Below are positions 5,455 through 10,358 of a DNA stretch of 64,000 nt, piece by piece. The translations under genes were made by a program, and so were the position numbers. The stretch's first letter is position 1; each line of letters starts with the position of its first letter. The stretch lies in contig NZ_JNKR01000008.1 in assembly GCF_000702905.1 (NCBI RefSeq), positions 1 to 64,000 of the forward strand, written 5' to 3'. The DNA comes from Mitsuokella jalaludinii DSM 13811 (GTDB taxonomy: Bacteria > Bacillota > Negativicutes > Selenomonadales > Selenomonadaceae). Below the pieces are notes generated by a model. That model saw nothing but the letters and a program-made list of their open reading frames with translations, was not told the DNA's origin and did no database searches.

Positions 5455-6738
5455 TCATATATAATCTGGATAATATAACTTCTTATATGTTCTCGATGCA
5501 TACTGATCTGTCATACCACCGATATGATCTGCAATTAGGCGAATAAAAAGACTATCTTTCTGCATTTCTTCTATCACCTTATCATTCAACAAATCGCGGT
5601 TAAAATCCTTGATATCAGAAGATAACCGGAAATAGCGACTCAAAACATAATCAGGCAACTCAAGAGGATGCTGATAAAAGGCCCTAAACATTTGACGGAT
5701 GATGTATTCCGATTTCGAATCCGAAATGCTGATTTCTTCAGAATGGATAATTTTATCGCTCACCCATTTCTGTAATTTCTTCCGGTTTACATCAACCTCG
5801 TCGGAGAATACAATGCAGGGTTCGGTAAACCAATAGTCACCATCTTTTTTGCTAGTCTGCTCAATATATGACTTTATCTTCTTCTCAGAAGCCTTGTCGA
5901 CATCCGAAATCAGGAAGCCGACAAGATGCTTGATGATGAATGAGCGTGTTTCATAGGCTGGCGTATTAGTATGCTCGTTTGCTTTAATGCCATATTGGCT
6001 CATAAAATCCTTTACAAGAGGCTGTTCAAGCAGTTCACGGAAGTCAATGATACCACTGCGCACACCATCTTCGAGATCATGGGTGCACTGCGCAATCTCG
6101 TCTGCAATTGCTACGGTCTGTCCCTCTAACGTAATAGACGGCTTATCCATTTCAATACCGTCTAGATTCAGGTTGTCACCATACTGATATGGCTTGCCTG
6201 TCTTCTTGTTTAAGCATTTCGTATGCTTCAAAATGCCTTCTCGCGTTGCAAAGGTCAGGTTGATGCCCATATACGCCTCACAACGGGATTCCTGTGTATC
6301 TAGGACGCGAAGCGACTGGAAGTTATGCTTGAAATCTTCCTGAATGGCACATACTTTTCCATCACGCAATTCAATCCCCTCGGTCAGGATCTTGCCTAAA
6401 GTCCGTTCCCCGATATGACCGAACGGCGTATGGCCCACGTCATGCCCCAATGCAATTGCTTCGACAAGCTCATCATTGAGTCCTAAATCCTTGCCGATAG
6501 AACGAGCAATCTGATTGACTTCCAGCGTGTGCGTCAGGCGGTTACGGTAATGATCCCCCTTATTCGCATTGAAGATCTGCGTCTTGTGCATCATCCTGCG
6601 GAATGCGCGGGAATGCAAGATTCTGTCGCGATCCCGCTGAAATGGATCGCGATGAACAGTCCCAGATGGATCGTTTTCCTCGGTATGCAGTCGCTGCGTC
6701 AAAAAAACCGAATCATTCCGTGCTGCATAATCTTTCAT
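5455..6738 (-). CDS. dgt: Deoxyguanosinetriphosphate triphosphohydrolase-like protein
   Basis: The 427-residue protein contains the HD phosphohydrolase signature: RNRLTHTLEVNQIARSI supplies the first His and ALGHDVGHTPFGHIGE the His-Asp pair, with later metal and substrate residues such as ADEIAQCTHDLEDG. This is the dGTPase family, which hydrolyses dNTP to nucleoside and triphosphate and so controls dNTP pools. The length is normal. GGGGGAAG lies seven bases before the ATG. A sigma-70-like promoter is visible upstream. The gene separates the small polysaccharide block from the DnaA-box module and is not an obvious part of either. Confidence 0.9.
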   Translation of the reverse strand: MKDYAARNDSVFLTQRLHTEENDPSGTVHRDPFQRDRDRILHSRAFRRMMHKTQIFNANKGDHYRNRLTHTLEVNQIARSIGKDLGLNDELVEAIALGHDVGHTPFGHIGERTLGKILTEGIELRDGKVCAIQEDFKHNFQSLRVLDTQESRCEAYMGINLTFATREGILKHTKCLNKKTGKPYQYGDNLNLDGIEMDKPSITLEGQTVAIADEIAQCTHDLEDGVRSGIIDFRELLEQPLVKDFMSQYGIKANEHTNTPAYETRSFIIKHLVGFLISDVDKASEKKIKSYIEQTSKKDGDYWFTEPCIVFSDEVDVNRKKLQKWVSDKIIHSEEISISDSKSEYIIRQMFRAFYQHPLELPDYVLSRYFRLSSDIKDFNRDLLNDKVIEEMQKDSLFIRLIADHIGGMTDQYASRTYKKLYYPDYI

Positions 6739-6883: not shown

Positions 6884-6935
6884 TGTGGATATCCTGTGGA
6901 CAATATGTGGATATCTACCGTGTAGCTGTGGATAA
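6884..6935 (+). promoter_or_regulatory. In-phase array of four DnaA boxes
   Basis: Four 9-mers in the same orientation match the DnaA box (TGTGGATAA read on the plus strand): TGTGGATAT at 6884, TGTGGACAA at 6895, TGTGGATAT at 6906 and the perfect TGTGGATAA at 6927. The start-to-start distances are 11, 11 and 21 bases, so all lie on one helix face. A fifth, weaker box TGTGGATAG is at 7008-7016. An AT-rich tract lies just to the left at about 6780-6830. No dnaA, dnaN or rnpA gene is near, so this is not shown to be the chromosomal origin. Confidence 0.7.
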
Positions 6936-7016
6936 ATATGGGGAGTGCTCCGCTTTGTGTGTCAGGTTGTGCGCGTTCTGTGTCCGCTCTGTGTTCTGCT
7001 CAGGCACTGTGGATAG

Positions 7017-7199
7017 CCGTCAGGCGTTGGCGCGGCTGGCTTCCGGGCGCTCTTAAGACGTAGCTCAAGCAAGAAACAAAGAAAAGTAACGTAGTACGGC
7101 GCGCTCCTCTGCTCATCTTCCCGTCCTTCGGCAGCGTCATCTTGCTCTCTCGTTTCTTCGAGTTGCCTCGCGATTCTGCCCGTTTTCTCTGTCTTTTCG
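7017..7199. other. Non-coding stretch between the DnaA boxes and the module promoter
   Basis: I see no supported gene here. Reading frames on both strands have an amino-acid composition unlike a protein and no Shine-Dalgarno sequence. Confidence 0.5.
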
Positions 7200-7268
7200 C
7201 ATGTGTCAAAAATTTTTCTCGAATGGCTGTCGCGCCATGTCTGGCAAGGGTTGACACATGTTTGACAC
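7200..7268. promoter_or_regulatory. TTGACAC/GTGTCAA operator-like cluster upstream of the HTH genes
   Basis: A 10-bp inverted repeat (CATGTGTCAA at 7200-7209 and TTGACACATG at 7251-7260) is followed by another TTGACAC at 7262-7268. The two TTGACAC copies start 11 bases apart, one helical turn. The same heptamer recurs before the DUF1659 gene. This suggests binding by a regulator or initiator, possibly one encoded in the module. Confidence 0.55.
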
Positions 7269-7301
7269 TTCGCCTGTCTGCGTCCCGTGGGCAATCTTCT
7301 C

Positions 7302-7330
7302 TTGACAGAATCATACTCTCTCGGTATACT
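7302..7330 (+). promoter_or_regulatory. Sigma-70 promoter of the HTH-amidase module
   Basis: A perfect TTGACA -35 box (7302-7307), a 17-bp spacer and TATACT (7325-7330) lie about 190 bases upstream of the first gene of the module. Confidence 0.75.
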
Positions 7331-7520
7331 AGGAGCATAGCACGACAAAACGCGCGGAAACGCGGAACACACCTTTGCACGACCACAATCAAGACGTATG
7401 AGCTTGCTTGTCTCTCTGTAGCAGATCGGCGGCTCTATGTTCTTGAGGCCGGTCTGCGGAGGGGCGGCAAGCTCTTTTGTCTGTGCGAGGAGCATTTCAT
7501 GGACTCGAAGGAGGGATTCG

Positions 7521-7958
7521 ATGGCAAAAGAGGCGATGACGGGCTTCATCACGGAGTTCCGTTTCTTTCACCAGATGCAGCCGGTGCGGCCGGTCTCGGC
7601 CTGTGCGCAGGCGCTCTGGCACTACTTGTTCTACCGGGCAAACGCCGCGTTCTGGCAATTTCCCCTGAAGATCCAGGCCAACGAAATTGCCGGGGCGCTG
7701 CGGATCTCGCGGTCGGCGTTCATGCGCTCGCGCGAGGAGCTCCGCAGCGCGGGCTATCTGCTCTACGAGCATGACCCGGGCACGCGGACGGTCAAGTACT
7801 ACCTCGTCAGCAATGTGCGGCCGCACATGCTCGTGACGCCGGCTGAGATGCTGGCGGGCACGAAGTCTTATCAGGATTTTCTCTCAGGAACACCAGTGCA
7901 GAAGGAGGTAAACCATGTTGCTTACGAATCATGCCCAGAAGCTGTATCGGGGAATTGA
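7521..7958 (+). CDS. Winged-helix-like DNA-binding protein, phage replisome-organiser type N-terminus
   Basis: AAGGAGG six bases before the ATG at 7521 fixes the start, giving 145 residues. The core, from about residue 20, has an ALWHYLFYRANAAFWQFPLK segment followed by a helix-turn-helix (IQANEIAGALRISRSAFMRSREEL) and a wing-like YYLVSN strand. This layout resembles N-terminal domains of phage and plasmid replication-organiser proteins in Firmicutes, by family recollection rather than search. The C-terminal 44 bases overlap the next gene. The gene lies downstream of a strong promoter with TTGACAC repeats and of DnaA boxes. It could be an initiator-like protein or a transcription regulator. 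Confidence 0.65.
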   Translation: MAKEAMTGFITEFRFFHQMQPVRPVSACAQALWHYLFYRANAAFWQFPLKIQANEIAGALRISRSAFMRSREELRSAGYLLYEHDPGTRTVKYYLVSNVRPHMLVTPAEMLAGTKSYQDFLSGTPVQKEVNHVAYESCPEAVSGN

Positions 7959-8550
7959 GGCGCTCGGCGGCGGCGTGATCCGCGAGCAGGTGCTGCGCGC
8001 GAAGGCAGGCGGCATCTCGCACGGGACGTTCATCGCGGCGCGGCAGGAGCTCTGCAAGGCGGGCTTCCTCGCCATCGAGCGCACGGCGCGCAAGCCGCAC
8101 TACCGCCTCATCGACACGGAGCGCGCGGCAAAGGTCATCGCGGAGTCGGAGGCCATCTACGCGCAGGGCGAGGTCGCCGTCTTCGAGGCAAAGGCGAAAG
8201 AGTCGGCCGCCCGGGCAGAGGCACCGCCGCCGCGCAAGGTGATCCCGATCCGGATTGCTCTGGCAAAGAAGGTATCGGAAAATTCCCGGGATTCTCGCGA
8301 TACGACAGACAAGATGGACGGCGTAGCGCTGAAGCTCGTGCCGATCGCGATCTTCGAGGATGGCCTGCCGCACATCGCGGGCCACTTTGCGGATTTTGCG
8401 GACTGGCACGAGGCGCTCGCGGAGGCGTTCGGCGACTTCGACCTCGATGAGGGCGCGGCGCCGCGGACGTACATCCTCTACGTGCCCGCGCGGCGCAGAG
8501 AGGACCACTACGAGGTCTGGCCGATGCCGGACGGCCTCATGGTACTTTAG
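7915..8550 (+). CDS. Second helix-turn-helix protein of the module
   Basis: AGAAGGAGGT lies just before the ATG, so the 44-base overlap with the preceding gene is real coupling. The 211-residue protein starts with a winged-helix-like domain (ALGGGVIREQVLRAKAGGIS, then HGTFIAARQELCKAGFL). A charged Ala/Glu-rich linker follows around residues 70-110, and then a C-terminal domain of unknown type (about residues 120-211) ending in PDGLMVL. The N-terminal part parallels the first protein, including the helix that precedes a GFL/GYL turn, so the two may be distant paralogues. Function is not known; DNA binding is inferred. Confidence 0.6.
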   Translation: MLLTNHAQKLYRGIEALGGGVIREQVLRAKAGGISHGTFIAARQELCKAGFLAIERTARKPHYRLIDTERAAKVIAESEAIYAQGEVAVFEAKAKESAARAEAPPPRKVIPIRIALAKKVSENSRDSRDTTDKMDGVALKLVPIAIFEDGLPHIAGHFADFADWHEALAEAFGDFDLDEGAAPRTYILYVPARRREDHYEVWPMPDGLMVL

Positions 8551-8651
8551 CATTCATAGATTCGATAGTTGATGGGATGGGATGGAATTTGTGCAAGGTC
8601 CATCCTTTCTTTATCCCTATCCCCCACCACCTCTCTAGAAAGGAGTCTATC

Positions 8652-9290
8652 ATGCGAATCTTCATCAACCCAGGTCATGCGCTCGGCGGCCGTCCGGACC
8701 CCGGCGCAGTCAACTGCGAGCACGGCGTGACGGAGGCGGCGATCAACGCGCGCGTCGCGGAGAATGCGCGCATCGCGCTCGAGCGCTGCGGCTACGAGAC
8801 GAAGGTCGTGCAGAGCCACAACCTGCGCGGCGAGGCGCCGGGCTACCCGAATGTCACAGGCCTCGCCAACAGCTGGCCCGCCGATGTCTTCGTCTCGATC
8901 CACGCTAATGCCGGCGGCGGCCGCGGCTGCGAGACGTACGCGTTCAGCACGCACTCGTGGGGCCACGCGCTCGCGACGACGGTGCAGCAGACGCTCTGGC
9001 GCGCCGTCAGCCGCATCGACAAGAGCTTTCCGAACCGCGGCGTCAAGGTCAACCCCGACTTCACGGTGCTGCGGCGCACGGCCATGCCCGCCATCCTCGT
9101 CGAGACGGCCTTCCTCGACACGGAGGAGGACTTCCAGCTGCTCGTCAGCCACGCCGCCGTCTTCGGCCACGCCATCGCCAGCGCCATCGACCAGTTCCTG
9201 CGCGCCCACATCACGCCGGAGGGCGATCTCATTTTCGAAGAAGACGAGCCCGCACCGTTGATGTGGCGGTATGTGCCCGCTACTATATAA
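8652..9290 (+). CDS. N-acetylmuramoyl-L-alanine amidase (Amidase_3)
   Basis: AAAGGAG six bases upstream supports the ATG at 8652 and a 212-residue protein. The Amidase_3 zinc site is visible: FINPGHALGGRPDPGAVN gives the first His, ITEAAINARVA-like VTEAAINARVAENAR carries the Glu, and SIHANAGGGRGCETY the second His. The catalytic Glu lies in LVETAFLDTEED. It cleaves the amide between MurNAc and the stem peptide. No signal peptide or wall-binding domain is present, so it would need a holin-like or other route if it acts outside the cytoplasm. It is followed by DUF1659, DUF2922 and YvrJ genes on the same strand, a grouping seen in other Firmicutes. Confidence 0.88.
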   Translation: MRIFINPGHALGGRPDPGAVNCEHGVTEAAINARVAENARIALERCGYETKVVQSHNLRGEAPGYPNVTGLANSWPADVFVSIHANAGGGRGCETYAFSTHSWGHALATTVQQTLWRAVSRIDKSFPNRGVKVNPDFTVLRRTAMPAILVETAFLDTEEDFQLLVSHAAVFGHAIASAIDQFLRAHITPEGDLIFEEDEPAPLMWRYVPATI

Positions 9291-9308
9291 TAGGAAGGAA
9301 ATCGTCAA

Positions 9309-9331
9309 TGACGTGTCAATTTAAGTGTCAA
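9309..9331. promoter_or_regulatory. Second TTGACAC/GTGTCAA cluster
   Basis: GTGTCAA occurs at 9313-9319 and again at 9325-9331, 12 bases apart. The first copy also forms TGAC-GT-GTCA (9309-9318). The same heptamer stands upstream of the first HTH gene, so both transcription units of the module may share a regulator. Confidence 0.5.
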
Positions 9332-9351
9332 AACTTTCTTATAAATACCCC

Positions 9352-9380
9352 TTGCTTTTGACATGTCAATCCCGTACAAT
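9352..9380 (+). promoter_or_regulatory. Promoter with embedded palindrome, driving DUF1659-DUF2922-YvrJ
   Basis: TTGCTT (9352-9357), a 17-bp spacer and TACAAT (9375-9380) form a sigma-70-like promoter. The perfect palindrome TTGACATGTCAA (9358-9369) fills the spacer directly after the -35 box, a position where a bound protein would block RNA polymerase. Confidence 0.65.
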
Positions 9381-9481
9381 AAAATCAAGGCAAGGGAAAA
9401 CGCTCCTGAGCCTCGGGCAGCTGCCCGGCCTCGCGGCTGCCTGCTGAGGCCCCCACCCTCTCACCTGAAAGGAGAACTATC

Positions 9482-9706
9482 ATGGCTACGCAGCGCACGA
9501 ACATCACGACTTCCCTCAAGATCAAGGTGGAGAACGGCACGACGGATGCCGGTGCCGTCAAGTACGCGACGCGCACGTTCAGCTCCATCAACCCGGAGAT
9601 CAGCGACGAGGACCTGCTCGCCGTCGGCCAGGGCCTCGCCGCCCTGCAGTCGCACGACGTCGGCGACATCCAGCGCGCCGAGAACGCAACGCTTGTCACG
9701 GCCTGA
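9482..9706 (+). CDS. DUF1659 domain protein
   Basis: The 74-residue protein follows AAAGGAG with good spacing. Its sequence (NITTSLKIKVENGT, then ATRTFSSINPEISDEDLLAV) matches my recollection of the DUF1659 family, small Firmicute proteins usually next to DUF2922 and YvrJ. No membrane segment, cysteine or catalytic pattern is visible. It is the first gene after the promoter with the embedded palindrome. Function in the family is not established; the context with an amidase hints at a cell-wall or phage-derived role. Confidence 0.75.
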   Translation: MATQRTNITTSLKIKVENGTTDAGAVKYATRTFSSINPEISDEDLLAVGQGLAALQSHDVGDIQRAENATLVTA

Positions 9707-9812
9707 ACAGCTGACTCGCACTCACCCCTGCACCGGCCGCCGCGGCAGCAGCCGTGACCCTGGCCGGATGAACGGATGAACCATCGCTCACGCATCGAAA
9801 GGAGTCACCACC

Positions 9813-10025
9813 ATGAAACGCACGCTTGAAATCGAATTCCTGCTCGACAACGCCAAGACGAAGACGCTCTCCCTGACCGACCCGAAAGATGACATCTCGG
9901 CCACCGCCGTCCAGACCTGGGCCGAGAACGTCGTCGCCAAGAAGGCCTTCCTGATTGGCGGCGCCTTCCCCGTCGCCTACAAGGGCGCCAGCATCCGCAA
10001 GGTCGACGTCGAAGAGCTCGCCTGA
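9813..10025 (+). CDS. DUF2922 domain protein
   Basis: The 70-residue protein begins after CGAAAGGAG. The pattern of an N-terminal strand (RTLEIEFLLDNAKTKTLSL), the PKDDIS loop and the closing GASIRKVDVEELA are typical of DUF2922, a short Firmicute family that accompanies DUF1659. It is soluble by appearance. About 107 bases separate it from DUF1659 and no terminator intervenes, so the two are likely co-transcribed. Function unknown. Confidence 0.75.
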   Translation: MKRTLEIEFLLDNAKTKTLSLTDPKDDISATAVQTWAENVVAKKAFLIGGAFPVAYKGASIRKVDVEELA

Positions 10026-10150
10026 TCCAATTTCCCCAGCTGACGGCAGCCGGGCTTCCCATCTCCGGCTGCCGCAGCTTTGCCCCACGGCTCAATCGCC
10101 CCACTTTGCCACGCCTCCGGCAATCGCCCCCTGACAAGAAGGTGACCCGC

Positions 10151-10309
10151 ATGGAACAGAACCTCCTGACCGCAATCTCCAGCGTCGGCTTCCCCATCGT
10201 CGTGACGCTCTACCTGCTGACCAGCTTCCAGCGCTCCATGGACCGCTTCACCGAACAGCTCAGCGAGCTCGTCAAAGAGCTCCAGCACCAGCGCCACCTC
10301 ACCCACTGA
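10151..10309 (+). CDS. YvrJ family small membrane protein
   Basis: The ATG at 10151 has AAGGTGA upstream and yields 52 residues. An N-terminal membrane segment (ISSVGFPIVVTLYLLTSF) is followed by an amphipathic charged helix (MDRFTEQLSELVKELQHQ), which is the YvrJ layout. It is the last gene of the plus-strand module and is followed by a strong terminator. A holin-like role next to a signal-less amidase is conceivable, but the single membrane segment and the family's unknown function leave this open. Confidence 0.75.
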   Translation: MEQNLLTAISSVGFPIVVTLYLLTSFQRSMDRFTEQLSELVKELQHQRHLTH

Positions 10310-10326
10310 CCCCTCCCCATAAAAAA

Positions 10327-10358
10327 GCCGTCCTGCAGCATCGTACCTGCAGGGCGGC
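10327..10358. terminator. Bidirectional terminator between YvrJ and rfbA
   Basis: GCCGTCCTGCAG pairs with CTGCAGGGCGGC with one wobble and an 8-base loop. Six A stand to the left and five T to the right, so the hairpin can end both converging transcripts. Confidence 0.85.

Follow-up and report, generated by a model that had tools for sequence, protein, structure and literature searches.

A six-gene module of Mitsuokella jalaludinii as a probable derivative of small tRNA-integrating islands of Negativicutes

In the genome of Mitsuokella jalaludinii DSM 13811 (G000), a module of six genes occupies positions 6884–10358 on the plus strand of a 64,000-nt stretch of contig NZ_JNKR01000008.1, referred to here as the window. 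The module is composed of a leader with DnaA boxes, orf1, orf2, an Amidase_3 gene, the genes of DUF1659, DUF2922 and YvrJ family proteins, and a terminator. We regard this block as probably an immobilised, and likely domesticated, derivative of small tRNA-integrating islands of Negativicutes whose architecture resembles that of phage-inducible chromosomal islands (PICIs). Judged by its gene content, this previously unnamed island family is PICI-like in layout but, unlike PICIs, carries lysis-type genes, along with genes of three uncharacterised protein families.

Integrase-bearing islands and the place of the window module

The gene order of the module was searched for in other Negativicutes, and 37 loci with an orf1 homologue were sampled from several families, several of them on incomplete contigs. 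Among these loci, an integrase is present in 34, xis in 34, XRE in 36, the amidase in 33 and YvrJ in 25, in one order: int–XRE and, divergent from them, xis–orf1–(ssb or orf2)–amidase–(cargo)–DUF1659–DUF2922–YvrJ. The integrases belong to the tyrosine integrases (PF00589), the XRE proteins to HTH_3 and the xis products to HTH_17; orf2 occurs in 14 of the 37 loci. The initial annotation, made from the window alone, had proposed a linked unit of replication-like and lysis-like parts related to mobile elements, and had named unlinked homologues or a fixed core position unrelated to mobile elements as what would speak against it. The genes proved to be linked and mobile-associated, and the DnaA boxes belong to the unit.

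The islands measure 4.7–14 kb and adjoin tRNA genes. In Selenomonas, the integrase lies next to tRNA-Ser(CGA) or tRNA-Leu, and the far end is closed by an exact direct repeat of the tRNA 3′ end in G075 (63 bp, 13.6 kb) and G124 (75 bp, 14.1 kb). An exact 63 bp tRNA-end repeat also marks the right end in G137, with tRNA-Ser 12.5 kb away; this distance combines the location of the tRNA in L104 with that of the repeat in L112. In G133, for which no orf1 is listed, the left flank and tRNA seen in G075 run directly into the native terminator found past the far repeat of G075, and this is apparently an unoccupied site. Compact islands of 4.7–6 kb in other families adjoin tRNA-Arg(ACG) or tRNA-Leu, and many of them carry ssb after orf1. 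Cargo lies between or beyond the core genes and includes a Dam/DpnI restriction-modification (R-M) system in L115, Dcm/HNH/Vsr genes in L069 (read by eye), a DUF1016-type nuclease (PADLOC PDC-S02), a GIY-YIG protein (PDC-S14) and a LysE transporter. In several compact islands, genes of the latter type are inserted between integrase and XRE, at L142:5913-6530, L141:8873-9493, L153:4174-4794 and L148:6003-6623, assigned by Pfam in L142 and by sequence likeness in the other loci.

In a tree of orf1, amidase and YvrJ, the window pairs with the congener G002 (support 0.999), and the pair is nested among integrase-bearing islands (0.998), so that the loss of int, XRE and xis is derived. In G002 these six genes lie on the opposite strand, likewise within a polysaccharide locus and in the vicinity of galU and glf. 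The congener G001 has neither orf1 nor DUF1659. No fragment of int, XRE or xis was detected above noise around the window module, and no tRNA gene lies in the 64 kb.

Phage-type genes, namely integrase, CI-like repressor, excisionase, single-stranded DNA-binding protein (SSB), endolysin and holin-like protein, would also be expected of an ordinary prophage remnant that retains the early region and lysis genes of a temperate phage, and next to the island of L135 there is a prophage-like tail/lysis region. This origin is nevertheless very improbable. No structural genes were recognised between the attachment (att) repeats in the gene maps of L110, L112 and L115, and capsid, tail, terminase and conjugation genes were not recognised in the islands read, where not every open reading frame (ORF) was profiled; the structural and packaging genes that define a prophage are thus not seen. 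Compact islands of about 5–6 kb stand alone in L136, L140 and L142. Pattern scans of 2.9 million viral contigs found neither orf1 nor the amidase, orf1 is absent from phage records, and YvrJ has only two weak matches in the phage collection. Descent from a plasmid that replicated from a DnaA-dependent origin is scarcely credible: the DnaA-box array and the initiator-like winged helix-turn-helix (wHTH) protein would suit it, but orf1 is unmatched in 72,556 plasmids and the contig is chromosomal. Moreover, partition and mobilisation genes were not recognised in the islands read, and an integrase with tRNA att sites is the rule. Since orf1, DUF1659 and the amidase are unmatched in the phage, plasmid and viral-contig collections searched, the module is by that test a remnant of neither. 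Of the earlier suggestion of a domesticated phage or plasmid remnant, the mobile origin therefore stands, while the source is better sought in a PICI-like island that has lost its integrase.

Between the window and its congener, all six genes show ratios of nonsynonymous to synonymous substitution rates (dN/dS) of 0.18–0.57 at dS of 0.15–0.67, with dS comparable to that of the neighbours galU and glf. Read from these ratios, all six genes are under purifying selection. As a separate observation, DUF1659–DUF2922–YvrJ (window:9482-10309) compared with L023 have dS of 0.15–0.27, while orf1–amidase of the same two species have 0.55–0.67; either recombination or synonymous constraint may account for the low values. 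A decaying relic without present function, in which the integrase has been lost and the module drifts towards loss, would be consistent with the disappearance of int, XRE and xis without a detectable fragment and with the lack of orf1 and DUF1659 in G001. We consider it unlikely, given that the six ORFs remain open in two species at these ratios, that G+C content at third codon positions (GC3) is host-like and that a 47-nt block of the second promoter is identical. Taken together, dN/dS, GC3 and promoter identity speak for a long-resident module under selection more than for one in recent decay, although they do not prove it.

Several observations weigh against the derivation of the module from the islands or against its lysis-type role. 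No terminal direct repeats flank the window module, and the compact islands have no att repeat of at least 14 nt, as searched. The C-terminal half of orf2 is missing in G002, where the gene is truncated; this also fits decay. The reading of YvrJ as a holin is drawn from a PHROG profile and topology. In several genomes, DUF1659–DUF2922 occur without amidase or YvrJ, and in a core locus they accompany a sigma-like factor; they may thus have a role other than lysis.

Origin-like leader and parts of the window module

The origin-like leader (6884–7096, plus strand) was delimited by box density and alignment. It contains five DnaA boxes (TTATNCACA, at most one mismatch; one exact and four with one mismatch) at 6884, 6895, 6906, 6927 and 7008, all in one orientation within 6884–7016, followed by a conserved tail, GTGGATAGCCG ... 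CTTAAGACGTAGC ... AAAGTAACGTAGTA. This is the densest box cluster of the first 20 kb; base shuffles gave a mean maximum of 2.4 and a highest value of 4. The leader is not the chromosomal oriC, because dnaA (G000:C30:968) and its own box cluster (C30:456) lie on another contig, and a generic dispersed repeat was rejected, with only two copies in the genome. Alignable counterparts occur in G002, at G000:C1:56241 and in the int–XRE interval of the Selenomonas islands. In nearly all Selenomonas and Anaerovibrio loci the interval between int and XRE holds the densest DnaA-box cluster, its boxes spaced 11–22 bp apart, and in many of these islands, as in the window, an outlying CTATCCACA box lies about 80 bp beyond the array. 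The tail motifs GTGGATAGCCG and CTAAGACGTA also align between the window leader and the Selenomonas islands. By these sequence alignments, the window array is homologous to the int–XRE array of the islands. In compact islands, the array and the 3′ end of orf1 overlap, much as in phages that have their origin within the initiator gene (lambda O). The second genomic copy of the leader (G000:C1:56241-56452; L019:6242-6453; 70% identity) is located between a phosphotransferase system-like/dehydrogenase gene and a type I R-M locus; it is possibly another island relic of which only origin and defence cargo were kept.

Downstream, promoter region 1 (7204–7330, plus strand) comprises TGTCAAA (7204), TTTGACA (7261) and TTGACA-N17-TATACT (7302–7330), an 11/12 promoter match; TTGACAC / TTTGACAC and the −35/−10 boxes are conserved in G002. 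The orf1 reading frame opens at 7437, with the likely start at 7521 indicated by a ribosome-binding site and a conserved start. Its 145-aa product (7521–7958, plus strand) occupies the rep position in the islands. The AlphaFold2 (AF2) model (predicted local distance difference test, pLDDT, 77) has its best PDB fold matches among CodY/MarR-type wHTH proteins (E 2e-3), and a DnaD-like PHROG match is weak (E 0.027); the protein is thus modelled as a winged-helix DNA-binding protein and is a putative replication initiator or regulator. The second winged-helix-like protein, orf2 (7915–8550, plus strand, 211 aa), was recognised by alignment with island homologues, with which it has its C-terminal domain in common. 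The 212-aa Amidase_3 protein (8652–9290, plus strand; PF01520, E 1.2e-29) starts with MRIFINPGH and shows no visible signal peptide, as first annotated. It has the NPGH, SIHAN and VETAF motifs of the Amidase_3/endolysin family, matches endolysin profile phrog_435 (E 2e-41) and has Ply, CwlV and autolysins as PDB relatives.

Promoter region 2 (9326–9396, plus strand) precedes DUF1659 and comprises TGTCAAA (9326), the palindrome TTTTGACATGTCAA over the −35 box and a TAAAAT −10 box, with TTGACA-N16-TAAAAT at 9358–9385 as an 11/12 match. Around it, positions 9349–9396 include 47 nt identical in G002, among them the palindrome TTGACATGTCAA over the −35 box; TTTGACA/TGTCAAA motifs flank the orf1 promoter as well. 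The following genes, all on the plus strand, encode the 74-aa DUF1659 protein (9482–9706; PF07872, E 9e-22; predicted β-β-α-β fold, AF2 pLDDT 84), the 70-aa DUF2922 protein (9813–10025; PF11148, E 6e-15) and the 52-aa YvrJ family protein with one hydrophobic segment (10151–10309; PF12841, E 1e-8). The module closes with a bidirectional terminator (10327–10358, GCCGTCCTGCAG-CATCGTAC-CTGCAGGGCGGC) with T-runs on both strands, whose stem is also present in G002.

Motif scans, profiles, and the stem with its T-runs place the DnaA boxes, the six ORFs, the promoter and the terminator where the initial annotation had them. Composition-based gene calling likewise bears out its view of the only plus-strand block before 62 kb: from 0.4 to about 62 kb all sizable genes except the module are on the minus strand, and codon-position composition agrees. 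Module GC3 is 0.75–0.92, host-like, and the genes upstream at 0.4–6.7 kb are AT-rich. The module does split a polysaccharide locus, with a flippase (PF13440) upstream and rfbA/rfbC/galU downstream. A second, AT-rich dGTPase-like gene lies upstream at 5455–6738, with a further copy at G000:C1:88326 and a single matching place in each of G001 and G002.

Settings of DUF1659, DUF2922 and YvrJ

DUF1659 was found in 30 of 41 sampled Negativicutes genomes, nearly always with DUF2922 adjoining on one side or the other and often with YvrJ. Two settings can be distinguished. In type A, the order ABC-F–sigma-like factor–DUF1659–DUF2922–YvrJ–recD2 recurs in L025, L032, L033 and L037 from several Negativicutes families, with the flanks ABC-F and recD2 named by reading sequences; type B, to which the window belongs, has orf1–(orf2)–amidase–DUF1659–DUF2922–YvrJ. 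The three small proteins stand in identical order in both, whereas the type A locus is fixed between ABC-F and recD2, lacks integrase and orf1, and encodes a YvrJ 22–35% identical to that of the window. Window YvrJ is 58–82% identical to Selenomonas island copies, and 22–35% to most copies of other contexts. YvrJ matches the holin profile phrog_4898 (E 2.3e-6). For DUF1659, the best PDB match in a fold search was phi29 p6 (E 0.16), and because this is not significant, we make no functional claim from the fold. Profile comparison did not support DUF1659 and DUF2922 as detectable paralogues, and a literature search found no functional paper on DUF1659, DUF2922 or YvrJ.

Further arrangements were observed. 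DUF1659–DUF2922–DUF1659–DUF2922–YvrJ stand in tandem at L093/L097:15587-16716 and L034:8075-9219, and in several Selenomonas islands this duplicated cassette runs opposite to the amidase gene. At L026:6319-9143, DUF2922 and DUF1659 have a TcdE-type holin gene (Phage_holin_4_1) and an Amidase_3 gene as neighbours, a sigma-like factor is encoded close by, and in L020 a GH25 muramidase is adjacent to DUF1659/DUF2922. A protein of 166–172 aa with no Pfam match is encoded near sigma-like/DUF1659 loci (L026:10455-10970, L027:11031-11528). DUF1659–DUF2922 cassettes are in or beside polysaccharide or lipopolysaccharide (LPS) genes in the window, L023, L020, L031, L035, L076 and L083, and forms with orf1/orf2 that lack an integrase are mostly so placed (window, L023, L035, L076).

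It is conceivable, though we doubt it, and in line with the new cell-wall system also suggested by the initial annotation, that DUF1659–DUF2922–YvrJ form an ancestral, regulated envelope cassette of the cell that was picked up by islands, with the window module a return to a cellular role near polysaccharide genes. The type A locus in four loci of different families, the seven polysaccharide/LPS placements and the varying partners in L020 (GH25) and L026 (Phage_holin_4_1 and amidase) would be consistent with such a history. However, window YvrJ and its orf1–amidase companions match the islands and not the core locus, and proximity to polysaccharide genes is weak evidence because these loci are insertion hot spots.

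Relation to known elements and proposed mechanism

In the literature searched, no paper on satellites of Negativicutes was found. The islands share with PICIs of the Staphylococcus aureus pathogenicity island (SaPI) type an integrase and master repressor divergent from xis, followed by a replication module with its origin and by late or accessory genes; the divergent arrangement with replication module is present in 34–36 of the 37 loci and lacking in the window. Specific tRNA att sites are likewise shared, as exact repeats of 63, 63 and 75 bp in three islands, with none for compact islands or the window, as are the size of the Selenomonas islands (12.5–14 kb), the lack of recognised structural genes and the defence cargo. 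The islands differ in that DnaA boxes and a wHTH protein take the place of pri/rep, in their compact 4.7–6 kb forms and in that no terminase or packaging genes were recognised. They also conserve an endolysin-family amidase (33/37) and a holin-profile YvrJ (25/37), whereas PICI criteria include the absence of lytic genes (PMC6092414) and satellites are reviewed as possessing no means of cell lysis (PMC11389934). Because amidase and YvrJ are core genes, the islands depart from PICIs on this one criterion while being PICI-type in layout. From the genes recognised, we class them with small integrative islands, as a variant of these, rather than with PICIs, and they may be satellites. In the phage-inducible chromosomal minimalist islands (PICMIs) of Vibrionaceae, three core genes are enough for a satellite (PMC10803314). 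Both kinds appear to have a minimal set of integrase, HTH_17/AlpA-type gene and replication gene in about 6 kb, no capsid remodelling genes and a defence hot spot at one end. The islands described here, however, use tRNA sites and not fis, carry amidase and YvrJ, and showed no primase domain in the proteins scanned. Compared with the early region and lysis cassette of temperate phages, packaging, head and tail genes were not recognised between the att sites, and the orf1 family was not found in phage collections.

In an intact island, relief of repression would allow Xis and integrase to cut the element out of its tRNA site. Replication would then begin at the box array, initiated by host DnaA and the wHTH protein of orf1. 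Late in the cycle, the holin-like YvrJ may give the leaderless amidase access to the wall, and DUF1659 and DUF2922 could be small cytosolic partners of this amidase/YvrJ wall-opening module, run by the regulators of the element. Such a module is the simplest reading of the endolysin and holin profile matches and, separately, of the holin, amidase and GH25 neighbours that DUF1659/DUF2922 have in L026 and L020. With int, XRE and xis gone, the window module cannot excise by itself. The origin, the two DNA-binding proteins, the amidase and the DUF1659–DUF2922–YvrJ cassette, which has a conserved promoter of its own, are still there and would be inherited stably as one unit, most likely for a regulated wall-opening function.

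As a tentative extension, we hypothesize that these are new PICI-like islands with their own wall-opening machinery, in which amidase and YvrJ act and DUF1659/DUF2922 have a control or accessory part, and that the window host captured this machinery for regulated wall opening. If so, release of the element would be independent of the lysis genes of a helper. DUF1659, DUF2922 and YvrJ, widespread and of unknown function, are thereby placed in a defined genetic context and given a function that can be tested. With their R-M and other candidate anti-phage systems, the islands may also be relevant to phage defence in rumen and gut Selenomonadaceae.

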